Shown here: piece by piece, positions 5,023 through 29,953 of the stretch | How positions within the stretch are numbered: position 1 is the first letter of the stretch | Layout of the letters: every line of letters starts with the position of its first letter | DNA from: a virus | Strand: one strand, 5' to 3' | DNA length: 31,745 bases | IMG/VR virus record: IMGVR_UViG_3300028392_000208 | Coordinates: 1 to 31,745 of that record | Translations under genes and position numbers: made by a program | Notes under the pieces: model-generated | Told to the model about the DNA's origin: nothing | The model's input: the letters and a program-made list of their open reading frames with translations, nothing else | Databases searched by the model: none

Positions 5023-5406
5023 ATGGCTAAAAAAGAAGAGCAACCGGAATCTTATTTCGTTAATCAAGTAAAAGACGTTAATGGAGAGTTTCACGACTAT
5101 GACGTCACTAAAGATGGTGACTTGGCTATGACTACTCACAAGCTTATGTCTAAGCATTTCCCTCACTATGAGCCAAGATTAGTTACTACAACTGACTCAG
5201 ATTACGGCAAGAAAATGACTGTAGCGGCTCAAGAGGGTAGAAATACTAACTTCAAAAAGGTGTCTGGTGCACTTGATAGCAAAAAGACTGCTGTTAAGCC
5301 AGCAGCTAAAAAGCCTGCTGCTAAGGCGGCTGCTAAGCCAGCTGCAAAGAAGCCTGCTGCTAAGACAGCTGCTCCTAAGAAAGCCGCTCCTAAGAAAACT
5401 AAGTAA
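5023..5406 (+). CDS. Small protein with histone H1-like Lys/Ala/Pro tail
   Basis: A 127-residue protein. The N-terminal 85 residues are mixed and probably folded (SYFVNQVKDVNGEFHDYDVTK; LMSKHFPHYEPRLV). The last 40 residues are near-perfect AAKKPAAK-type repeats, like the tail of histone H1 or of bacterial histone-like proteins, and should bind nucleic acid or acidic surfaces non-specifically. The repeats run at DNA level too (AAGCCAGCTGC variants). The start has a GGAG site about 7 bases upstream. It heads a run of very basic small genes, and its stop overlaps the next start (TAATG). Packaged-DNA condensation or head-internal protein is a guess. Confidence 0.8.
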   Translation: MAKKEEQPESYFVNQVKDVNGEFHDYDVTKDGDLAMTTHKLMSKHFPHYEPRLVTTTDSDYGKKMTVAAQEGRNTNFKKVSGALDSKKTAVKPAAKKPAAKAAAKPAAKKPAAKTAAPKKAAPKKTK

Positions 5407-5546
5407 TGCCTTTTAAGTCTAAAGCTCAAGAGAAGTGGATGTTCTCTAAATACCCACAGATGGCTAAGCAATGGGCAGCAATTACTAATCAAAAAGCTTT
5501 ACCTGAAAAAGTAAAATCAAAGAAGAAGAAGAAAAATGGCAAATAA
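5406..5546 (+). CDS. Small basic phage protein (46 residues), KSKAQEKWM family
   Basis: The frame starts in the TAATG overlap with the previous gene. It encodes MPFKSKAQEKWMFSKYPQ, then a short helix and a C-terminal run of lysines. The pattern MPFKSKAQ.[KR]WM(F/Y)...P.MA..W recurs in many phages and prophages as a tiny conserved protein of unknown role, which makes this more than a chance frame. It overlaps the next start by eleven bases. Its job is unknown. The conserved N-terminal motif suggests an interaction segment rather than simple charge. Confidence 0.75.
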   Translation: MPFKSKAQEKWMFSKYPQMAKQWAAITNQKALPEKVKSKKKKKNGK

Positions 5547-5706
5547 GAAGCCTGTTTGGGACACTCCGGACCCTACTAAAAAAGATAAAAAACTAACCAA
5601 GCCTAAGAAGGCAGCTGCTAAAGCCCGCGCTAAGGCTGCGGGTAGGCCTTATCCTAATCTTGTAGACAACATGGCTGCGGCTAAAGCAAGAAAGAAGAAG
5701 AAATAA
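5536..5706 (+). CDS. Small basic protein (56 residues), GRPYPNLVDN motif
   Basis: Starts at an ATG inside the end of the previous gene, behind an A/G-rich stretch (AGAAGAAGAA) that can serve as ribosome site. The product has an N-terminal WDTPDPTKKDKK segment, an Ala/Lys helix, then GRPYPNLVDNMAAAKA and a poly-Lys end. GRPYPNLVDN is a motif I have seen in other small phage proteins. Function unknown. Its stop overlaps the next ATG by one base, so four consecutive genes are translationally chained here. Confidence 0.7.
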   Translation: MANKKPVWDTPDPTKKDKKLTKPKKAAAKARAKAAGRPYPNLVDNMAAAKARKKKK

Positions 5707-6020
5707 TGGCAAGTGAAGCATGGCAAAAAAAGTCTGGTAAAAACGCAAAAGGTGGTCTTAATGAAAAGGGCCGTAAATCTTACGAAAGAGCTAATCCTGG
5801 GTCTAATCTAAAGGCTCCAGTAAAATCTGGCGATAACCCTCGCCGCGCGTCTTTCCTAGCGCGTATGGCTGGTAACCCAGGCCCGGAGCGTAAACCAAAC
5901 GGAGAGCCTACCCGTCTGCTATTATCATTACAGGCATGGGGAGCATCCTCAAAAGCTGACGCTAGAAAAAAAGCAGCAGCTATGTCCAAGCGTCTTGAAT
6001 CCAAAAAAGGAAAAAAGTAA
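5706..6020 (+). CDS. Conserved small phage protein, GGLNEKGRKSY family (DUF6321-like)
   Basis: A 104-residue basic protein with the order KGGLNEKGRKSYERANPGSNLKAPV, then DNPRRASFLARMAGNPGPER, then GEPTRLLLSLQAWGASS. This three-block pattern (GGLt.KGR, GSnLKAPV, RR.SF..R..G..GP, G.PTR..l.l..W) is widespread in myovirus and cyanophage genomes as a small protein of unknown function. I connect it with the family named DUF6321 from memory, so the accession should be treated as unverified. The arrangement of conserved Gly, Pro and Arg is not what a charge-only DNA condenser would need, so it may bind a specific partner. It belongs to the chained run of small basic genes. Confidence 0.75.
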   Translation: MASEAWQKKSGKNAKGGLNEKGRKSYERANPGSNLKAPVKSGDNPRRASFLARMAGNPGPERKPNGEPTRLLLSLQAWGASSKADARKKAAAMSKRLESKKGKK

Positions 6021-6335
6021 ATGGCATTATCTCAAACTTTAAACACCGTTGGTGGTACCGCGGTAAAGATTAGTCCTACTGTAGATGGAAGCTGGGTTGC
6101 AGCTACTCTAATCGTACAGAACAACAGCACTACAGATACTGTCTATTTGGGCACATCTAGCGTTACTACTAGCGCTTATGGATATGTTTTGCCTGCAGGT
6201 ACAACTAACGTAAAGAACTCAGTCACTATCGGCCTTAACACTGGTGACGTGCTTTACGCAGTATCTAGCGGAACTACTACCCCAGTACCTGTTCTTTCTC
6301 TAATCAATACCTTTACTAAACAGGCTCTTGTTTAA
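6021..6335 (+). CDS. Small beta-rich virion protein (decoration-like)
   Basis: A 104-residue protein quite unlike its basic neighbours: almost no charge, rich in Val, Thr, Ser and Gly. The pattern (ATLIVQNNSTTDTVYLGTSS; GYVLPAGTTNVKNSVTIGL; GDVLYAVSSGTTTPVPVL) reads as an eight-strand beta sandwich. This domain is common in phages, alone or fused to capsid or fibre proteins, with N.....vylG.s.vt.......l.ag and dlYa...g as signatures. A head decoration or surface protein is the best inference. It starts immediately after the previous stop. Confidence 0.75.
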   Translation: MALSQTLNTVGGTAVKISPTVDGSWVAATLIVQNNSTTDTVYLGTSSVTTSAYGYVLPAGTTNVKNSVTIGLNTGDVLYAVSSGTTTPVPVLSLINTFTKQALV

Positions 6336-6344
6336 TATTTAACA

Positions 6345-6527
6345 ATGGTCCCTAAAAAGAAACAAGGTTTAAATAAAGCCGCCGCTGCTAGACGTAAGGT
6401 AGAGTCAGCTGAGCTGTATAAAAATATGGGCAAGTTTAAAACTGGTGAGCATCAAAACCCTGCCACTAAACGAATCAGAACTAGATCAGCGGCTAATAAA
6501 AAAGCCGTTGACGATTTTAAGGAGTAA
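6345..6527 (+). CDS. Small basic protein (60 residues)
   Basis: A 60-residue Lys/Arg/Ala-rich product (QGLNKAAAARRKVESAELYK, then GEHQNPATKRIRTRSAANKK). It is probably helical with basic and acidic residues interleaved. The start has no clear ribosome site, and the codons before it are A/T-rich, so the exact start is uncertain. I do not recognise a family. It is kept as a gene because it lies in the same frame-tight run of small genes and is followed by a good GGAG site for the next frame. Confidence 0.55.
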   Translation: MVPKKKQGLNKAAAARRKVESAELYKNMGKFKTGEHQNPATKRIRTRSAANKKAVDDFKE

Positions 6528-6535
6528 ACAGAATA

Positions 6536-6592
6536 ATGCCCGAGTGTAAGTGCGATAATTGTAAGTGTCGAAAGGACCAACCAAATGGCTAA
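6536..6592 (+). CDS. Cys-rich micro-ORF (18 residues)
   Basis: An 18-codon frame encodes MPECKCDNCKCRKDQPNG, with four cysteines in a C-x-C-x2-C-x-C arrangement, a metallothionein-like or zinc-knuckle-like metal site. An AAGGAG site lies 11 bases before the ATG, and the frame overlaps the next start by eight bases, the same coupling used by its neighbours. The size makes it easy to miss. It is supported by the site, the coupling and the non-random cysteine pattern, but not proven. Confidence 0.45.
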   Translation: MPECKCDNCKCRKDQPNG

Positions 6593-6797
6593 AGCTAAAA
6601 AGAAAAAACAAGCCCCTGCCGGTGAAGGCGGTCGTTTCAAAGCCCTAGAAGAAAAAGCAAAGAAGTCTGGTGCTAAAAACCCTGCTGCTGTTGCCGCTGC
6701 TGCTGGAGCTAAAAAGTGGGGAAAAACAGATATGGCCAAAATGGCCGCTGCTGGTAAAAAAGGCAGAATTCACAAACCTAAGATGGGTGGAAAGTAA
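6585..6797 (+). CDS. Small basic protein, GGRFKAL...AAAGAKKWG family
   Basis: A 70-residue protein in two parts: a poly-Lys N-terminus, then GEGGRFKALEEKAKKSGAKNPAAVAAAAGAKKWGK and DMAKMAAAGKKGR. The FKAL..K....GAKNPAA..AA.G.KKWGK..M.KMAA.G pattern recurs in phage and prophage small proteins, so this is a conserved family of unknown function, not a random basic frame. An AAAGGA site is upstream. It starts inside the Cys-rich micro-ORF. Confidence 0.7.
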   Translation: MAKAKKKKQAPAGEGGRFKALEEKAKKSGAKNPAAVAAAAGAKKWGKTDMAKMAAAGKKGRIHKPKMGGK

Positions 6798-6799
6798 TT

Positions 6800-7039
6800 A
6801 TGGCAATGATGAAGAAGTTTACTAAGGACAAGGGTAAGAACCCATGGACTGGTTCAAAGGCTGATGAAAAGGCTGACAAGAAGACCATGAAGGGTATGAC
6901 CCCTAAGCAGAAGGCTGCCTTTGAAAAGGGCGACAAGAAGATGGACGCAAAGAAGCCATCTAAGGCTGCTGACATGAAGATGGACAAGGCTCTAGCCGCT
7001 AAGGTAAAGAAGACCGTTCCAGCTAAAAAGAAGAAGTAG
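6800..7039 (+). CDS. Extremely Lys-rich small protein (79 residues)
   Basis: By my count 27 of 79 residues are lysine, with frequent Lys-Lys pairs, and the C-terminus is KVKKTVPAKKKK. Asp, Met and Ala fill most of the rest, so the chain is probably one or more charged helices, not a globular domain. Codon choice differs from the neighbours: AAG greatly outnumbers AAA here, while the flanking genes use both. That hints at selection for expression or a different origin. Family unknown. DNA or RNA binding is inferred from charge alone. Confidence 0.65.
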   Translation: MAMMKKFTKDKGKNPWTGSKADEKADKKTMKGMTPKQKAAFEKGDKKMDAKKPSKAADMKMDKALAAKVKKTVPAKKKK

Positions 7040-7041
7040 CC

Positions 7042-7398
7042 ATGGCGGTAGGCACAGGTTCCGGAAATAAAAAGATTGCCAAGAATACAAAAAAGTTCGT
7101 TAAGCAGTCAGTGCAGTATAGTGCAACTAAAACAGTGGCAGGCCAAAACGGTGTTGTAAATGAAAATGGGCGCCCAAAGTATGCAGGCATGAAAAACCCA
7201 AGTAAAGTTACCGATACTCAGAAACAAGCTAGAAGAAGCTTTGCAAAAGCCTCTGGTAAACTGGGTAAGGGTGTAGGAAACAAAGTTAATCCTATTAGCA
7301 AAAATAAGGAAACCAAGTCCATCCCTAAGAGAGTCAATCAATCGATTGTTGCTCGCGGAGGAAAGCCTGTTAGTACCTATAAAAAGAAAGATAAGTAA
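7042..7398 (+). CDS. Basic protein of unknown function (118 residues)
   Basis: A Lys/Asn/Ser/Val-rich protein without obvious domains (GSGNKKIAKNTKKFVKQSVQ; GVVNENGRPKYAGMKNPS; KQARRSFAKASGKLGKG; KRVNQSIVARGGKPVSTYKK). The Gly-Lys and Asn-rich turns make it look unstructured until bound. It starts 3 bases after the previous stop with no strong ribosome site, so coupling by re-initiation is likely. No homologue is recognised. The position in the basic cluster suggests the same role as its neighbours. Confidence 0.6.
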   Translation: MAVGTGSGNKKIAKNTKKFVKQSVQYSATKTVAGQNGVVNENGRPKYAGMKNPSKVTDTQKQARRSFAKASGKLGKGVGNKVNPISKNKETKSIPKRVNQSIVARGGKPVSTYKKKDK

Positions 7399-7400
7399 TC

Positions 7401-7679
7401 ATGGCTAATACTCCAAAACCAGTTCGTAAGGCAATCCAGAAACTAAAGCCTGTTGCTAGAGAAAACGGTAAGAATGCTGCTAGAGGCGGTAGTCAAACTA
7501 AGCCTGCTGCTAAGCCTTTAGCGGTTGCTACTAAAGCTAAGGGAGCTCGTTTCGTCAGTAAGACGCTTAATAAGGCTCACGTAGAGACTAGAGCAAAGAC
7601 TATGGCTAAGGATTCAAAAGACCCTAAAGTCGCTAACCAAGGCGCAGCTGCTCGCAAAGAGTCTAAAAACTCGAAGTAA
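7401..7679 (+). CDS. Basic protein of unknown function (92 residues), last of the cluster
   Basis: A Lys/Ala/Arg-rich chain (PVRKAIQKLKPVARENGKNA; KPAAKPLAVATKAKGARFVS; NKAHVETRAKTMAKDSKDPK). The KPAAK element echoes the repeat tail of the first gene of the cluster. It begins two bases after the previous stop and is followed within 15 bases by a terminator, so it closes the operon of small basic genes. Function unknown. Nucleic-acid binding is inferred from charge only. Confidence 0.6.
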   Translation: MANTPKPVRKAIQKLKPVARENGKNAARGGSQTKPAAKPLAVATKAKGARFVSKTLNKAHVETRAKTMAKDSKDPKVANQGAAARKESKNSK

Positions 7680-22250: not shown

Positions 22251-24848
22251 ATGACAGTTTATGGGTCTAAACTATATGGGGCGTTTCGGTATGGCGTAGG
22301 TGCTACTACCGATATAAGCGTCTACCCATTTACTACGCAGTCCTTAGATTACGGGACTATTAAGTTATCTTGGGTATATCCAACTACTGCCGCTACTTTT
22401 ACTACATTTATGATTGTAAGGAATCCTTCTGGATTTCCTATTACGCCTGATGGCGGAGATTTAATTTACAAAACAGACCAGTCAACTTTATCCGCAAATA
22501 ACTTACTCGGTACTACAGCGGTATTAACTGATATTGGTTCTTTTTATGACCCTATTACTGGAACAGCTACTAATACGTACACTGCTGTTACGACCGGCAA
22601 TACAGATGACAGTATTTATGTAAACTTAACTTCTGCTAATTCAAGCATTGCTGCGGGTCAATTAGTTACATACACCGCTTCTGGATATTTGACTGGAGCA
22701 AATGCGGGTAGTGGGCTTATTGGTAATACAACAGTAGTTGCTAAAAGTGTTGATGGGCTTACATTAACCCTAAGTAAGGCTGCGTCTATCCCGGATGGAA
22801 CTACTTTAACTTTTTCTTCTACGTTTCTTACTCCGGGAAAATCGTACTACTACTCAGCGTTTGTTTTGACAAACGAGTATTGGCAACGTGTTGGAACTGC
22901 TTTAGGCACGTCTATCAAAGACTACAATACTGCTAATGTCATTTATAATGCTTTGCCTTCAGTTTACGTAAAGTCCTCAACAACTGCTAATAAAAATATT
23001 GACTTATATAACTTATTACGTGTGATCGGTGTTCAGTACGACCTTATTAAAACTAAAGTAGATAACGCTAAAAATAGATACGACGTTGCCAACTTAGATG
23101 GCAAGTTGCTACCTGCCATGATGGACCAAATGGGCTTTACTTATGAAAGCGGATTAGGTATTCAACAAAGCAGAAGGCTGCTAAGTAATGCTGAATACAT
23201 TTATTTAAATAAAGGAACTAGCCAAGGTATCAAACAGTTTGTGACATCTTTTACTGGGTATCCTACTACTGTTAGCTCCTTTAAAAATCTATTTTTAACT
23301 TTAAACTGCTCTTCTTTTGAATCTTCCACGGGTTTTTGGGGGGCAAGCGGAAACGCGCTAACGGTGACTAATACTACCGCTGCTTTAGAAGGCGGTAGCC
23401 CTGCTCCATACTCTGAAACCTCTTCTCCTACGGGATATGCAAATAAACAACTTGGATATCTAAAAGCCACTGTGACGTCAGTAGCGGCAGCGTCGACTTG
23501 GGAAATTTCTTATGGAATGTCTTTAGATGATTTTACTATTTCAACGACCACCAGCAACAACGCTGTAGTTGGATATGGGTATATAACACTCACTACAACT
23601 GCTGAACACGGTTTTTCTACCGGGCAATCCGTGGTTATTCAGGGTATGACTCCGAACTATATAAATGATATTTGGACTGTTATTGCTGTCCCAAACGCTA
23701 AATCATTTACTATTTATAGTTCAGCAGCAGCAACTGCTGGGGCAATATCAGTTGCTCCAGCAAGCTCTACTGGAACTGTTAATTTATACGATCCTAGATT
23801 ATACGGTATACCGGTTACAGCAGGTAGTAGTTATTTACCTTCTATTTATGCTTATACACCAGCTGTGCGTAATATCCGTATAGGAGTCAGATGGTATGAC
23901 ATACGTGGTACACGCCTTACAGCTGCAACAACTTCAAGCGCTGATATAACCGGAGATACTCCAGGAGCATGGAAACGAATAAATGGTACTGGATTTACTG
24001 CCCCATCGGGTGCTGTTTATGCGGTACCTTATGTGCAGGTATTGTCTCCGTCAAATGGTGAGGTGTACTATTTTGACGCGGCTCAATTTGAACTAGCTGC
24101 ATCTTCTCCCTCTACTTACTCGGACGCAAGGCGTGTAGACCTATATCTATCTGCTCCTAGAATTAATCAAGTTATAAATCCTGGATTTGAATTAGCTACA
24201 ACTGGCTGGTCTACCACAGGTACTAGCACTTTTGCTACAGATGCTTCTAATGTTTATCCAACTAGCTCGGTCGGCCTAGGCACAGCAATTAGCACAAAGT
24301 CAGCAAAACTTACTTCTAATAACGCAGCCACTACTTTATCCCCAAGCACTGACATTTCAGTAACTTCCGGTAGTCCTTACTCGTTTAGTGCTTATATTAA
24401 AGGCCCAATTGCTGACACAGTGTCTCTAAATATTACTTGGAAAGCTACTGGTGGCTCAACTATTAGCACTTCAACTTCTTCAGCAACTACGTTAGCTACA
24501 ACATTTTCTAGAGTTTCATTAATTGCTTCGGCCCCAGCAACTGCAGTTACTGCCACTCTAACTTTTACATTTGCAGGAACAAGCGGCGATATTTACTACA
24601 TAGACTCTGTTTTATTTGAGATAGGGTCTTTTGTAAACGCGTATTTTGATGGCAGTACGGGATATAACGAGACTTATGATTTAGTGTGGGAACAAAACGC
24701 AGCTGGTACAGCTGGAACTGCAAGTACTGGTAGAAGCCTTTACTACCCAAATAGATTGTTAACACAGGCTCGATTAAACGCTGTAATAGAGGACTATCTT
24801 CCTATTGGAACAACCTATGCTGTGTTCATAGGTACCACCGCTACTTGA
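22251..24848 (+). CDS. gpI-like baseplate protein fused to carbohydrate-binding-like modules
   Basis: An 865-residue mosaic. Residues 1-110 and about 190-215 form an Fn3-like domain (TIKLSWVYP, MIVRNPSGFPITP, PGKSYYYSAFVLTNEYWQRVG), interrupted by a module A at about 112-189. Residues about 226-340 are tail protein I-like (NVIYNALPSVYVK, NLLRVIGVQYDLIKTKVDNA, AMMDQMGFTYESG, RRLLSNAEYIYLNKGTSQGI), the part that docks on the wedge. From about 352 comes a jelly roll of CBM4/9 type (SSFESSTGFWGASGNALTVT; IRIGVRWYDIRGT; YYFDAAQFELA), split by a module B at about 441-502. A second one follows at about 640-790 (NPGFELATTGWSTTG; YYIDSVLFEIGSF). A short helical end closes the chain. It probably carries the tail to a surface polysaccharide; substrate unknown. 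Confidence 0.8.
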   Translation: MTVYGSKLYGAFRYGVGATTDISVYPFTTQSLDYGTIKLSWVYPTTAATFTTFMIVRNPSGFPITPDGGDLIYKTDQSTLSANNLLGTTAVLTDIGSFYDPITGTATNTYTAVTTGNTDDSIYVNLTSANSSIAAGQLVTYTASGYLTGANAGSGLIGNTTVVAKSVDGLTLTLSKAASIPDGTTLTFSSTFLTPGKSYYYSAFVLTNEYWQRVGTALGTSIKDYNTANVIYNALPSVYVKSSTTANKNIDLYNLLRVIGVQYDLIKTKVDNAKNRYDVANLDGKLLPAMMDQMGFTYESGLGIQQSRRLLSNAEYIYLNKGTSQGIKQFVTSFTGYPTTVSSFKNLFLTLNCSSFESSTGFWGASGNALTVTNTTAALEGGSPAPYSETSSPTGYANKQLGYLKATVTSVAAASTWEISYGMSLDDFTISTTTSNNAVVGYGYITLTTTAEHGFSTGQSVVIQGMTPNYINDIWTVIAVPNAKSFTIYSSAAATAGAISVAPASSTGTVNLYDPRLYGIPVTAGSSYLPSIYAYTPAVRNIRIGVRWYDIRGTRLTAATTSSADITGDTPGAWKRINGTGFTAPSGAVYAVPYVQVLSPSNGEVYYFDAAQFELAASSPSTYSDARRVDLYLSAPRINQVINPGFELATTGWSTTGTSTFATDASNVYPTSSVGLGTAISTKSAKLTSNNAATTLSPSTDISVTSGSPYSFSAYIKGPIADTVSLNITWKATGGSTISTSTSSATTLATTFSRVSLIASAPATAVTATLTFTFAGTSGDIYYIDSVLFEIGSFVNAYFDGSTGYNETYDLVWEQNAAGTAGTASTGRSLYYPNRLLTQARLNAVIEDYLPIGTTYAVFIGTTAT
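22584..22820 (+). repeat. Module A in the gpI-like gene
   Basis: DDSIYVNLTSANSSIAAGQL, then GLIGNTTVVAKSVDGLTLTL and SIPDGTTLTF. It interrupts the Fn3-like domain: the strand before it (FYDPITG) and the one after (PGKSYYYS) belong together. Confidence 0.6.
23572..23760 (+). repeat. Module B in the gpI-like gene
   Basis: TTAEHGFSTGQSVVIQGMTP, then NYINDIWTVIAVPNAKSFTI. It interrupts a jelly-roll (CBM-like) domain, the same insertion habit as in the sheath. Confidence 0.65.
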
Positions 24849-24898: not shown

Positions 24899-25522
24899 AT
24901 GAGACGAGTAACCATCGCGGTTATAGGTAACGCAAAAACAACCAGAGCCAACGTAGAGGCTCTAATCAGTGACGTAGTAGATTCAGTTGATGAAGCCACT
25001 ATTGTCAGTGTATTTGACCAAGCCCCATCTGAGGGTATTCTTTGGGCAGAACAATGGGCTGTCGATAAAGGTATACCGGTAATTAAGTATCCGGGTAATG
25101 ATTATGAGACCTTGCTCAAGGACAATCCCGCCGAAGACCTAAAGTTTTTTATGCTTTGGGATGATGAAGATCCGGAATGTCAACTAGCCGCTTCAAGGGC
25201 TCAGGAAGCCCGTATACTGGCTTATGACCTTACAGACGGACTTATACTCATACCGCTCAATTCTGAGCCCATCTCGCGCCCGCAGGAGCCTAAAATACCT
25301 ATAGCAGAAACTGTTACTGTAACTACGCCAGAGCCTGCTGTAACTATTAAGGCTGCCCCTGACGTTGAAGTGGCTGAAGAAGACTACGAAGAAGAACTTG
25401 ATACTGTCGATTATGACAGCGAGTATGACCTAGAGGAAAACCTGGTTGTTCTTGTATCTGAGATGGGTAAGATATTTGCCCGTTCTTTTGCGCAAGAGTT
25501 TAAAAAGATTATCAAGGACTAG
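24899..25522 (+). CDS. Rossmann-like protein of unknown function, first gene of the replication operon
   Basis: A 207-residue protein in three parts. Residues 1-118 look like a Rossmann-type domain (RRVTIAVIGNAKTTRANVEALIS; ATIVSVFDQAPSEGILWAEQWAV; GIPVIKYPG; DLKFFMLWDDEDPE; ILAYDLTDGLILIPL). The strand-G-N and P.SEG...AE.WA..KGIPV pattern recalls SLOG/DUF2493-type nucleotide-binding proteins, but I cannot confirm this. Residues about 120-185 are a Pro/Thr-rich linker and then a very acidic stretch (EEDYEEELDTVDYDSEYDLE). The last 27 residues form an amphipathic helix (LVSEMGKIFARSFAQEFKKI). Promoter and AGGAGG site immediately upstream imply high early expression. Possible roles are nucleotide sensing or a partner of the initiator; none is proven. 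Confidence 0.7.
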   Translation: MRRVTIAVIGNAKTTRANVEALISDVVDSVDEATIVSVFDQAPSEGILWAEQWAVDKGIPVIKYPGNDYETLLKDNPAEDLKFFMLWDDEDPECQLAASRAQEARILAYDLTDGLILIPLNSEPISRPQEPKIPIAETVTVTTPEPAVTIKAAPDVEVAEEDYEEELDTVDYDSEYDLEENLVVLVSEMGKIFARSFAQEFKKIIKD

Positions 25523-25523
25523 C

Positions 25524-26396
25524 ATGTCAGTCGAACTTAGTAGGCAAGCTCAGGATTGCCTGGCTTTTCTATACCTGAATCCAACCGTAACAATAAATCA
25601 CCGTACCCTGATGGAGCACAAAGGCTTAAGCAGACGCAAGAGCCTATCTGTTCTTCAGGAGTTACGAGACGCAAACTGCCTCAAAATGACTAGACTAGTC
25701 GGAGGCGGAACTAAAACTAAAGTGGTAATGTCAGAAGTAACCAAATCGGTACTTTCTGGTTACCGCCATATAGCAGTACAGCTAGTAAGCAGTATTTACA
25801 ATAGCTATACAGCTAGTACTACTAATATAGCTACAAATAAATTCCTCGACGGGGTCGAGGGGAAGGAACAACAAGTGGGTTATGATTTCTTTGAAAAGAC
25901 TTCGTCTCCAGATGACGAGATGCTGGCGGAACGCGCAAAGCACATGGCTCAGCAAAAGGCCGAGTACGCGGCTGTTCGCGAGGTTAAGGCGCAAAAACGC
26001 AAAGACCAGCATCGTTCTAAAATCGATCCAATACACTGGACATGCAAAGACGTGGCCTACGAGTTTGCTGACCACATGGCGGACATCTGGTCCATCAAAC
26101 CTTTCAGTGTCACTCAGTCCCGGTTTGTACAGGCACTCTCGGTATTCCGGAAACAGCACGATACTAACGGTGAGATTGAACTCAGGATTATCGAGCTATT
26201 CTTCATCACACTTAAGCACGATAAGTACACAGACGGAAACCACCTCTGGCGAGCTTTCCTCTACAAAGCTCCCAGTTTGCTAACTCAGGCTCGTGAGAGT
26301 ATTATCACAACAGAGCAAATGGAAACGAATATTATTCGTGACCAAGAAGTAACTAACCGTAAGCTGGCTCTGCTGGACGAGGATGATGATGTATAA
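25524..26396 (+). CDS. Winged-helix replication initiator candidate (lambda O-like position)
   Basis: I start at ATG 25524 (290 residues), right after the previous stop; the frame stays open upstream but there inside the previous gene. Residues 1-75 form a winged helix-turn-helix (RQAQDCLAFLYLNPTVTINH; HKGLSRRKSLSVLQELRDAN; LKMTRLVGGGTKTKVVMSE). Residues about 82-120 are a Ser/Thr/Asn/Tyr linker. A Lys/Glu-rich helix and a second helical domain (CKDVAYEFADHMADIWSIKP; VTQSRFVQALSVFRKQHD; IIELFFITLKHDKY) follow. Its stop overlaps the DnaC-like loader start. A DNA-binding N-domain plus a C-domain next to a loader suggests an origin-binding initiator. A transcription regulator is the alternative. 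The linker's DNA contains repeats described separately. Confidence 0.7.
   Translation: MSVELSRQAQDCLAFLYLNPTVTINHRTLMEHKGLSRRKSLSVLQELRDANCLKMTRLVGGGTKTKVVMSEVTKSVLSGYRHIAVQLVSSIYNSYTASTTNIATNKFLDGVEGKEQQVGYDFFEKTSSPDDEMLAERAKHMAQQKAEYAAVREVKAQKRKDQHRSKIDPIHWTCKDVAYEFADHMADIWSIKPFSVTQSRFVQALSVFRKQHDTNGEIELRIIELFFITLKHDKYTDGNHLWRAFLYKAPSLLTQARESIITTEQMETNIIRDQEVTNRKLALLDEDDDV
25768..25860 (+). repeat. Direct-repeat cluster, AT-rich stretch and hairpin inside the initiator gene (putative origin)
   Basis: TACAGCTAGTA occurs exactly at 25777-25787 and 25808-25818 (31 bases apart). AGCAGTA occurs at 25772 and 25788, ATATAGC at 25768 and 25825, ATAGCTA at 25801 and 25827. An AT-rich run (CTACAAATAAATTC) and a perfect 7-bp hairpin, CCTCGAC/GTCGAGG with loop GGG (25844-25860), follow. 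No T-run follows the hairpin, so it is not a terminator. The repeats overlap the linker coding region of the initiator candidate. Interpretation as an origin is inference. Confidence 0.45.
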
Positions 26397-27075
26397 GCCA
26401 AACGATTTGCCGGCCCGTAGACGGACTTGGGTAAAGATTGCAAGCATTCCACCAGCCAAACTTGGTTGGACCTTGGAGGACTGCACAGCGGTTCCTACGG
26501 AGGTTATGACAGCCGTGACTAAGTGGACTGCTGCCGTTACTGCAGACAAGGTTATTAGAGCCGAGGGTAAAGCAACCTGTGGTCTAGGACTTATGCTTTA
26601 CGGTATGCCTGGACGTGGCAAGACCACTATGGCTAATACGCTATTACAGGAAATCTTACGCAAAGCCGCGCCTGAAACTTTGGGCATGGTACCGGGTAAG
26701 ATTGTTTCACGCCCTGCTTATTTCATTACGTACACCGGATTGCTAGACCTTAAGGGAGCAATCATGGAGGACCACGATAATGAAGATGAGTTGTTATACA
26801 ACGGCATTCTTGGCGAGGCATACGATGATGCTTATAACGTTCGCGTACTAGTCCTAGATGACGTAGGCAAGGAGCACGCTAGTGCATCAGGTTGGCAGAA
26901 GAACATGCTTCACCATGTGCTACGTACCAGATTCAACAACGGTCTTCCTACGATTGTCACAACCAATCTTAAGATTGATGACTGGGAGGCTCACTACGGT
27001 TCCGCTACGCAGTCTTTTGTTCACGAGTCATTTATCTATGTAAACATGGACTCGATTTCGGATTTGAGGAAATGA
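26383..27075 (+). CDS. DnaC/IstB-like AAA+ helicase loader
   Basis: A 230-residue AAA+ ATPase. Walker A is GMPGRGKT at residues 74-81. Walker B is VLVLDDVGKE with the two Asp at 159-160. A sensor-type Asn occurs in TIVTTNLKIDDW, the standard DnaC-family motif. The N-terminus (YKPNDLPARRRTWVKIASIP) may bind helicase or initiator. Three ATGs in a row (26383, 26386, 26389) make the exact start uncertain; a GACGAGG site fits the third best. The gene overlaps the initiator candidate and precedes DnaB-like and DnaG-like genes, so it should load the helicase. IstB-type transposition partners have the same core but no transposase lies nearby. Confidence 0.88.
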   Translation: MMMYKPNDLPARRRTWVKIASIPPAKLGWTLEDCTAVPTEVMTAVTKWTAAVTADKVIRAEGKATCGLGLMLYGMPGRGKTTMANTLLQEILRKAAPETLGMVPGKIVSRPAYFITYTGLLDLKGAIMEDHDNEDELLYNGILGEAYDDAYNVRVLVLDDVGKEHASASGWQKNMLHHVLRTRFNNGLPTIVTTNLKIDDWEAHYGSATQSFVHESFIYVNMDSISDLRK

Positions 27076-27076
27076 C

Positions 27077-27379
27077 ATGGGCTCAAATAGAAGATTGCTT
27101 CAGGTGTTTATAACCCACAGGTCAAACAATCCTGGACCAGGTATCTTTGAAGTAAGCACAGACCCCGATAAAAATTTGGAATGTAATTGCCCAGGCTTTG
27201 CGGTTAAAAATAACTGCAAGCATGTTGCTTTAATCGAAAGCCGAATAGAAGCAAACGAAGGCAAATACCCTTTTGATTTTTCTAGCAAAGTTACCGTGGA
27301 TGAAATTAAATCTGCTATGAAAACTGAAGAAGCTTTCCGCGAGTTCATTATTAAATACGCCAAAGTTGAGGTCTACTGA
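27077..27379 (+). CDS. SWIM zinc-finger protein
   Basis: A 100-residue protein with a clean SWIM motif: C36-x-C38, eight residues, C47-x-H49 (ECNCPGFAVKNNCKHVALIE), after a short strand (FEVSTDPDKNLE). SWIM domains bind zinc and usually DNA or proteins, and occur next to helicases. The rest is a helical end (VTVDEIKSAMKTEEAFREFI). It starts one base after the loader's stop and ends in the overlap TGATG with the next gene. As a stand-alone SWIM protein in a replication operon it may act with the SNF2-type helicase downstream; SWIM and SNF2 domains are often fused in bacteria. This partner link is inference. Confidence 0.8.
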   Translation: MGSNRRLLQVFITHRSNNPGPGIFEVSTDPDKNLECNCPGFAVKNNCKHVALIESRIEANEGKYPFDFSSKVTVDEIKSAMKTEEAFREFIIKYAKVEVY

Positions 27380-27786
27380 TGCAAGGAAATGACATTAGTA
27401 ATTCTTTACCACAACGTGTTATAGTAACGGCTGATGTTATAGTTGATGTTTACGAGGACCAGCAAAAGGTACTAGGATTTATACCAGTTAAAAAAAAGCG
27501 TAAGGAATATAACAGGATGGTACTTAGCCATTTGTACATGACTTCGCTTAAACGAGGTATAACGATGGAGCTAGTTAGTTTTAAGCACTCAGACGATGAG
27601 ATGACTGAGCTAATGCTTCATCTAGATAGTGTCGGAACGAATCCGTTTCGCTACGGCACCTCTTACAAATCGGTCGATATGTTAGTTAAAGAACTACCAT
27701 ACAGGCCAGAAGTTATCGGCGTAATTGATATCCCATCGCGACTACTTAGGTATGGTCGATGGGGGATGGACTTTCCTACACTATGA
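27379..27786 (+). CDS. Conserved-looking phage protein of unknown function
   Basis: A 135-residue protein I cannot name. It opens with strands (LPQRVIVTADVIVDVYEDQQKVLGF, basic VKKKRKEY), then a helix and strand (NRMVLSHLYMTSLKRGITMELVSF). The end is VDMLVKELPYRPEVIGVIDIPSRLLRYGRWGMDF. The last part (P.RP.ViGVIDIP.R..RYG..G.D) looks strongly constrained and has the style of a small alpha/beta enzyme or nucleotide-handling fold. No catalytic motif is assigned. The start overlaps the preceding stop, and its own stop overlaps the DnaB-like start by ATGA, so it is co-translated with the helicase. Confidence 0.65.
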   Translation: MQGNDISNSLPQRVIVTADVIVDVYEDQQKVLGFIPVKKKRKEYNRMVLSHLYMTSLKRGITMELVSFKHSDDEMTELMLHLDSVGTNPFRYGTSYKSVDMLVKELPYRPEVIGVIDIPSRLLRYGRWGMDFPTL

Positions 27787-29009
27787 GTACAGAATCAAAA
27801 CTAATCGGGGCGGCAATCCGCATCCGAGATTTAGCACCACTATTTGAACGCGGAGTATCAGACAATTGGTTCTCTAATGATGACGACAAACGCGTCTGGT
27901 CATTCATGCGTACGCACTTTGCTAAGTATGGCGAAAGCCCTAGCGAAGAAGTAATTGTTGCAAACTTTCCTACCTATCGAATTGCAGAACTAACCGACTC
28001 GATGGATTTTTTACTAGATGACCTAGTAGATAAAAGACGCAAGCTTTCTATCAGCAATACGCTACGCCTAGCTATTGACGCTATTCAAACTGAGAAAGAC
28101 CACGAAGCTGCTCTATTAGTTATGCAGAGCGGGCTTGTAAAGCTTGAAGAAGAGGGCCTGAACAAGACCTCAGATATTAACTTGATTACCACTACAGAGT
28201 CGCGTTGGGAAGACTACTTATTCCGTAAGAACAACCCTGGCCTACTGGGCGTCGCTACTGGGTTTCCTACCATTGACGCCGTTACTAATGGTCTACAGAA
28301 TGGTCAGCTAATTGTAGTAGTCGCTACTCCAAAGACCGGTAAGTCAACCCTTGCTCTGCAGATTGCAAACAATGTTCACAAGCAGGGACTAGCTCCGATG
28401 TTTCAGTCTTTTGAGATGACAAACCGTGAACAGCAAAACCGCTATGACTCTATGCGAGCATTGGTATCCCACAACAGACTTATCTCAGGTACCCTAACTA
28501 AGGATGAGGAAAAGAGATTCCAAACCGCTTTGGAAAGTATGGCAGAAGATGAGTCAGACTTCTGGCTGGTAGATGCCGCTCACGGTATTACCGTGTCAGC
28601 TATTCAGAGTAAGATTCAAACACTAAACCCAGATGTAGTATTCATTGACGGTGTTTACCTGATGATGGATGAGCAGACCGGCGAGTCAAACACGCCACAA
28701 GCTTTGACCGGCATTACTCGTTCGCTAAAGCGTCTAGCTCAGCGTACAAACAAACCAATCGTTATTACTACCCAGGCCCTTAACTGGAAGACTAAAAAGG
28801 GTAAAGTATCCACAGACTCTATTGGTTACTCATCATCATTCCTACAGGATGCTGACGTAGTATTCGGCCTTGAGCGTGAAGATGAAAACGTAGATGATAC
28901 TAGAACGCTAAAGGTTATGGCTGCTCGTAACAGCGGTAACGTAGAAGCCTCTTTGATGTGGGACTGGGCCAGCGGTCTATTCCGTGAGATGACAAGCGAC
29001 GACGTATGA
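27783..29009 (+). CDS. DnaB-like replicative helicase
   Basis: I start at ATG 27783, which overlaps the previous stop (ATGA); an in-frame ATG 24 bases upstream adds eight residues of no homology pattern. The 408-residue product is DnaB-like: an N-terminal helical domain (KLIGAAIRIRDLAPLFERGV), a linker, then RecA core with Walker A VVATPKTGKSTLALQ at about residue 180, Walker B DVVFIDGVYLM at about 284, and the C-terminal SYSSSFLQDADVVFGLERED. The N-domain is shorter than in bacterial DnaB, as in many phages. It unwinds the fork as a hexamer, with the loader upstream and primase downstream. Confidence 0.92.
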   Translation: MSTESKLIGAAIRIRDLAPLFERGVSDNWFSNDDDKRVWSFMRTHFAKYGESPSEEVIVANFPTYRIAELTDSMDFLLDDLVDKRRKLSISNTLRLAIDAIQTEKDHEAALLVMQSGLVKLEEEGLNKTSDINLITTTESRWEDYLFRKNNPGLLGVATGFPTIDAVTNGLQNGQLIVVVATPKTGKSTLALQIANNVHKQGLAPMFQSFEMTNREQQNRYDSMRALVSHNRLISGTLTKDEEKRFQTALESMAEDESDFWLVDAAHGITVSAIQSKIQTLNPDVVFIDGVYLMMDEQTGESNTPQALTGITRSLKRLAQRTNKPIVITTQALNWKTKKGKVSTDSIGYSSSFLQDADVVFGLEREDENVDDTRTLKVMAARNSGNVEASLMWDWASGLFREMTSDDV

Positions 29010-29953
29010 GACTAGAAGAAATGGAAACGGTACTACGCCGTTTAGATATTGAGCCTGTAAACGCACGCGGTTCGGAGATACTTGCGTTATGCCCAGGCCA
29101 CAAAGAGATTACTGGCAAAGAAGATCGTAGCCCGTCTTGGTGGATTAATGCTGACACAGGCGCTCACATTTGTTTCTCCTGTGGCTTTAAAGGTAATCTA
29201 TGGTCTTTGATTGCTACTGCACAAGGCTTACGGGATGCGAATGGCTTTCTTGATTACGCAGACGCTAAAGACTGGCTATACCTATCGTTCGATAATCTAC
29301 AGTTAGGCACACAGGAAATTGAAGAGCCAGAGACTGTATTCAAAGAAGTAACTAACATTACAGAGGCCAGACTTGCTTTATTTACTTATCCACCGCAGCA
29401 CGCATTGACTGCGCGCGGGTTTACTCTGCAGGCCGCTGAGAAACACCAGCTACTATGGGATACCGCACACTCAAACTGGATATCTGTAATCCGTGACCCC
29501 TATTCAAATAAATTGTTAGGTTGGCAGGAGAAAGGGTTTAGTCGTCGTTATTTCAGGAACTACCCTACCGGAGTAGAAAAGTCAACCACTCTATTTGGAT
29601 TTAACCGATATACTGGTGGTCGTATGATTGTTGTAGAATCTCCGCTAGATGTAGTACGCCTAGAATCTATTGGCGTTACCGGTGCAGTATCTACATACGG
29701 TTCAATGATTTCTAACACCCAGCTAGAACTTATCAAAGAAGCAGACGAAATCGTATTTGCTTTAGATAATGACGAGTCAGGCATGAACTCTACGAAAAAG
29801 ATGCTCGAACAAAATTTCGAAGCATGGTACTTTAACTATTCGAACACAGATATGAAAGACGTGGGAGCTATGAGCAGGCTTGAAATCCTAACGGGATTAG
29901 ATAATGCTAAGCACTCAGTACACGGACTAGGAGCGCTAGAATGGCTTTCGTAG
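29006..29953 (+). CDS. DnaG-like DNA primase (CHC2 zinc finger plus Toprim)
   Basis: A 315-residue primase. The zinc site C29-x2-H32...C56-x2-C59 (ALCPGHKEI; GAHICFSCGFKG) is the CHC2 type. The Toprim core has the catalytic Glu in IVVESPLDVVRL at about residue 211 and the Asp pair in FALDNDESGMNS at about 254-256. Between them is a linker with the GWQEKGFSRRYFRNYP strand. The protein is short: the C-terminal helicase-binding domain of bacterial DnaG is absent. The start overlaps the DnaB-like stop (ATGA). It makes RNA primers on the helicase-opened strand. Confidence 0.92.
   Translation: MRLEEMETVLRRLDIEPVNARGSEILALCPGHKEITGKEDRSPSWWINADTGAHICFSCGFKGNLWSLIATAQGLRDANGFLDYADAKDWLYLSFDNLQLGTQEIEEPETVFKEVTNITEARLALFTYPPQHALTARGFTLQAAEKHQLLWDTAHSNWISVIRDPYSNKLLGWQEKGFSRRYFRNYPTGVEKSTTLFGFNRYTGGRMIVVESPLDVVRLESIGVTGAVSTYGSMISNTQLELIKEADEIVFALDNDESGMNSTKKMLEQNFEAWYFNYSNTDMKDVGAMSRLEILTGLDNAKHSVHGLGALEWLS

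Follow-up and report, generated by a model that had tools for sequence, protein, structure and literature searches.

Results

An initiator gene at the head of a replication cassette

Does a phage represented by an uncultured viral contig carry its replication origin inside the gene for its own initiator? The question is raised by one locus in a stretch of DNA of 31,745 bases (IMG/VR virus record IMGVR_UViG_3300028392_000208, positions 1 to 31,745; referred to as the window herein), for which a sequence-only reading had proposed a lambda-like, self-contained pairing of initiator and origin. The initiator (O-like) gene lies at 25524-26396 on the plus strand, starts with an ATG at 25524 and encodes 290 amino acids, as supported by the open reading frame, an AlphaFold (AF2) model and 24 relatives. 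A DnaC-like loader gene had been claimed to stand directly after it, and this was borne out: the gene at 26383-27075 (+) encodes a DnaC-like AAA+ helicase loader (PHROG 50, E 2e-27; Pfam IstB, E 2e-6), and its start overlaps the end of the initiator gene (26383 versus 26396). Farther downstream follow genes for a small SWIM zinc-finger protein (27077-27376, +), which every lineage examined keeps between loader and helicase, an unknown protein, a DnaB-like replicative helicase (27759-29009, +; Pfam DnaB_C, E 3e-34; PHROG 19), a DnaG-like primase (29006-29953, +; Zn_ribbon_DnaG and Toprim; PHROG 47) and a SNF2-type helicase. The order initiator, loader, helicase, primase is constant across all lineages examined, with the loader gene overlapping or coming after the initiator gene in every one of them.

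Three further observations concern the surroundings of this cassette. The gene directly upstream of the initiator (24899-25519, +) encodes a protein with an acidic C-terminal part that gave no significant match in Pfam or PHROG; every lineage examined, L025 and L029 included, has this gene upstream of the initiator. Among the virion structure genes of the window, seven small, lysine/alanine-rich ORFs stand in a run at 5023-7679 (+) and resemble histone H1-type tails. Lastly, record G006 (87,293 bases; loci L086-L090) has identical 114-base termini, is classed as linear and is probably a complete genome of ∼87.2 kb.

The AlphaFold model of the initiator has a winged helix at residues 7-67, a low-confidence linker at residues 81-124 and a helical C-terminal part. 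Residues 1-114 match MarR-type winged-helix domains with VIA-align Z scores of up to 10.0. The linker coincides with the DNA element described below, and the model would therefore place this cis element in the linker-encoding part of the gene; both this position and the N-terminal winged helix agree with the sequence-only reading. The protein gave no significant replication-family match in Pfam, PHROGs or NCBIfam, and no family match to any named replisome organizer in Pfam or PHROGs. The 'O-like' PHROG 678 reached an E value of 0.03 at best against the initiator family, and in two of 12 members only. Structure searches with the C-terminal domain (pLDDT 72) returned nothing above noise; a DnaD chain appeared among unrelated rows at Z 5.3, which is below a meaningful level. 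No relative of the initiator was found by tblastn of 50,697 phage records or in GTDB genome contigs.

Synonymous sites are frozen within the initiator gene

Relatives of the initiator were found at 24 loci in viral contigs, and more were recovered when a distant relative served as query. The close set consists of 16 distinct relatives with 80 to 92% protein identity. Across these 16, codons 82-109 (25767 to about 25850) show zero synonymous differences, whereas the rate of the gene itself would predict ∼470 to 490 pairwise synonymous differences per 15-codon window. In the same codons, amino acids vary as they do elsewhere in the gene, and the remaining gene drifts freely. When 28 more diverse genes were analyzed, the best 24-codon window had 0.14 of the expected synonymous change; among 20,000 column permutations of these genes none was as low (0/20,000) and none fell below 0.39. 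The same scan of seven neighboring genes gave no comparable stretch and no window below 0.43. This conservation among relatives is the decisive fact for the element.

Two repeats, a weak duplex and a covarying hairpin

The element, a putative origin, occupies ∼95 bases at 25767-25860 (+). From left to right it consists of two imperfect-dyad repeats, followed by the gene's weakest duplex and then by a 17-nt hairpin; every part that the sequence-only reading had listed could be located. The exact 11-base direct repeat TACAGCTAGTA occurs at 25777-25787 and again, 31 bp away, at 25808-25818. It is nested in an 18-bp repeat with 89% identity between its copies (25770-25787 versus 25801-25818). Copy 1 of this iteron-like repeat (25770-25787, +) reads ATAGCAGTACAGCTAGTA and contains the imperfect dyad TAGCAGTACAGCTA, while copy 2 (25801-25818, +) reads ATAGCTATACAGCTAGTA and contains the imperfect dyad TAGCTATACAGCTA. 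The dyad arms of copy 2 are complementary at six of seven positions in most relatives; in L033, L052, and L063 the arms differ, and complementarity is kept through paired changes. Judged from a single sequence, the pair of 11-mers stands out only moderately, given that 0.8% of dinucleotide shuffles of the gene contain two identical 11-mers within 60 nt. Three 7-mer repeat pairs are also present, namely ATATAGC (25768 and 25825), AGCAGTA (25772 and 25788) and ATAGCTA (25801 and 25827). An additional repeat-like stretch (AACAGCTATATAGCAG / AATAGCTATATAGCAG) was seen to the left of copy 1 in two relatives (L048:3166-3294 and L050:4226-4354) and is perhaps a third site. The recognition helix and the repeat sequence were compared for coordinated changes, and none was evident.

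To the right of the repeats, 25819-25843 forms an AT-rich run of 80% A+T, and of all 30-bp windows in the gene, the one at 25814-25843 (+) is thermodynamically the weakest and is likely the unwinding element. In nearly all relatives, the weakest 30-bp duplex of the gene is likewise 3′ of repeat 2 and just before the hairpin. The hairpin itself, CCTCGAC-GGG-GTCGAGG, is perfect and lies at 25844-25860 (+), with a 7-bp stem and a 3-nt loop. Among relatives, 168 of 168 cells of the stem are paired, three pairs are doubly changed and no G-U/G-T pair occurs. As single-stranded DNA it folds with −6.7 kcal/mol (z −3.5). The hairpin is thus a conserved, covarying part of the element, which refines the earlier description of it.

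The sequence-only reading had further expected the positions of the repeats to be kept among relatives while the protein drifts, and this is what we observed. In the window's lineage the spacing of the repeats is 31 bp and copy 1 is translated in another frame, as VQLV; in L032, L035, L037 and others the spacing is 30 bp and both copies give SYTAS. Since the repeat is kept though its reading frame differs between lineages, selection acts on the DNA and not on the peptide. Two distant lineages, L025/L026 and L029/L070, have 30 to 47% identity in the C-terminal part. Their linker DNA is different, yet each carries a 17-nt hairpin in the linker, with another sequence, and synonymous change in these linkers is again slight or absent. 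In these distant lineages, the repeats of L025 and L029 are less clear; L033, L052, and L063 have degenerate repeats.

The repeat is confined to the element, and GC skew switches nearby

The 31.7-kb window contains exactly two copies of the 11-mer. Seven related contigs (37 to 88 kb) likewise have exactly two copies each, 30 or 31 bp apart and only at the element; four more distant contigs lack the 11-mer. A scan of four large contigs returned no good partial match to the repeat outside the element. Accordingly, copies at a promoter or elsewhere, which would have pointed to another site of action for the protein, were found neither upstream of the gene nor in the genomes searched.

A switch in GC skew, as anticipated from the sequence, was seen close to the initiator gene. 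The global minimum of the cumulative curve falls 406 to 1441 bp upstream of the element in seven of nine related contigs, among them G009 and G010 of a distant lineage. For G001 the minimum is local and the 8-kb switch is strongest at −1.2 kb; for G011, which is too short on one side, the 5-kb switch is strongest at −0.5 kb. Third-codon-position skew of same-strand genes shifts in the same sense between upstream and downstream. The signal resides in the 5- to 10-kb scale and the cumulative curve, skew differences at the 2-kb scale being not distinctive. Because the switch, which lies upstream of the element by ∼1 kb, coincides with the border between the late and early gene modules, it does not serve as independent proof.

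Comparison with lambda ori and SPP1 oriL

The lambda origin lies in the middle of gene O and contains 18- to 19-bp imperfect inverted repeats, bound by O dimers, beside an AT-rich stretch (PMC7466680, PMC5043065, PMC6022878); two iterons and the AT-rich stretch make up its minimal unwinding unit (PMC7466680, PMC5043065). The oriL of SPP1, made up of direct repeats and an AT-rich DUE, is situated within initiator gene 38; the loader gp39 and the DnaB-type helicase gp40 take part in initiation (PMC6316719).

When lambda O and nine relatives were put through the same scan, synonymous change was low over the known origin and beyond it, and parts of the C-terminal half were low as well; this is expected of mosaic lambda O alleles and leaves lambda as only a rough yardstick. 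By the same calculation as used here, the weakest duplex of lambda O is at 39131, just right of iteron 4. In lambda as in our phage, the origin or candidate origin is in the linker region of the initiator gene, dyad-containing repeats stand to the left with an AT-rich weakest duplex just to their right, and the loader gene overlaps the end of the initiator gene. Beyond the AT-rich part, lambda (NC_001416, locus L091) has a 7-bp inverted repeat at 39162-39189 (GTCAGAG/CTCTGAC, at 39162 and 39183), which may correspond to the hairpin of our element. That hairpin, however, is tight, 17 nt long with a loop of 3 to 5 nt, whereas the lambda inverted repeat has a 14-nt loop. The repeats also differ in number and spacing, with two at 30 to 31 bp here and four at about 20 to 24 bp in lambda. 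Moreover, the loader here is DnaC-like and the phage has its own helicase and primase, unlike lambda.

At the level of sequence, we found no homology between the initiator and lambda O (hhalign probability 0.3%) and no similarity between the loader and lambda P. Membership in the lambda O family was rejected on these grounds, as there was no significant match to an O-family profile and the loader is not a homologue of lambda P. The likeness to lambda is therefore architectural: the system would be lambda-like in working and architecture and, as judged from its sequences, stands outside the lambda O family. SPP1 resembles our phage in that direct repeats and an AT-rich DUE lie in the initiator gene and that a loader works alongside a DnaB-type helicase encoded by the phage itself. 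Our repeat search found no second site, whereas SPP1 has another origin, oriR, besides oriL.

Discussion

We propose that the element at 25767-25860 is the replication origin of this phage, placed inside its own initiator gene, and we put the probability of this reading at roughly 0.84. Four of the results bear on what an embedded origin is expected to look like. There is DNA-level constraint inside the initiator coding sequence; repeated, spaced sites adjoin an AT-rich stretch suited to unwinding; the initiator has a predicted DNA-binding domain and the adjacent gene encodes a loader; and strand composition switches at the site, a property that is expected of an origin and not strictly defining. 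Conservation, anatomy, uniqueness, and skew together lend support to the earlier proposal that a lambda-like, self-contained initiator/origin could be built from different sequences.

Other functions could account for some of these features. It is possible, though unlikely, that the hairpin is an intrinsic terminator of leftward (antisense) transcripts that adjoins the repeats by chance. Read on the minus strand, the stem has AATTTATTTG after it and fits a loose terminator pattern, and 32 of 35 sequences pass a loose T count. However, the tail begins with AA in the main lineage, the longest T run is 2 to 3 in 34 of 35 sequences, and L019, L038, and L040 fail yet keep the stem. An A-rich plus strand beside the stem is, moreover, expected of an unwinding element and itself gives the T richness. 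A terminator would in any case cover the hairpin alone and is compatible with an origin. We give still less weight to a purely regulatory site, at which the initiator would bind repeats in its own gene to regulate how the early operon is transcribed. A MarR-type winged helix with imperfect-dyad sites suits such a role; proteins of the MarR type usually act as repressors. Against this, the element is ∼245 bp inside the gene, promoter-like matches were found only at 24845, 25014, and 26277 (+) and 25065 (−), none of them in the element, and the sequence upstream of the gene contains no good match to the repeat. Regulation alone also leaves the weakest duplex, the covarying hairpin, and the skew switch unexplained; an initiator may do both, regulation and initiation.

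Low synonymous change is also a mark of RNA elements and overlapping genes, but either seems very improbable as the source of the conservation here. No alternative reading frame stays open through the element in every relative, and the spacing of the repeats shifts the frame between lineages. An RNA element had no Rfam match, the absence of any G-U pair from the 168 stem cells speaks against one, and repeats with an AT-rich stretch do not characterize a folded RNA. Packaging (pac/cos) or recombination sites can be conserved within genes as well, and we hold such a site to be the most remote of these alternatives: contig ends do not cluster at the element, which is near the middle of four 79- to 89-kb contigs, and its location in the initiator and replication cassette as well as the weak duplex favor replication. 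An internal promoter, an overlapping ORF, and a pac/cos site were put aside, as scan matches, frames, and contig ends were all against them.

If the element is an origin, initiation could proceed as follows. The winged-helix domain of the initiator would most likely bind the two dyad repeats, whose spacing of 30 to 31 bp would correspond to about three helical turns. The bound initiator might then bend or wrap the DNA and open the AT-rich stretch beside repeat 2, and its C-terminal part would recruit the DnaC-like loader encoded by the next gene. The opened strand would then receive the phage's DnaB-like helicase from the loader, and the phage primase would join. The hairpin could bound the opened region and, as a single strand, may mark the place or the strand for helicase or primase. 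More tentatively, the 17-nt hairpin may be an obligate part of this class of origins, acting as a folded single DNA strand or an extruded cruciform that sets the place or strand of the loader-helicase complex, with a sequence that drifts while pairing and position stay constant. We regard this as a possibility somewhat short of even odds. Were it true, two repeats plus a structural hairpin would constitute a distinct origin design, used by an initiator unrelated to lambda O.

The origin proposed here predicts where replication starts, without any isolate, for a group of uncultured tailed phages. It suggests that an origin within the initiator gene, in the linker between the DNA-binding and the presumed loader-contacting parts, arises with unrelated proteins, and hence a compact design that is common to unrelated phages. 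The covarying hairpin raises the concrete question of how helicase loading gets directed. Lastly, a scan for synonymous constraint could find such hidden origins in many viral contigs.
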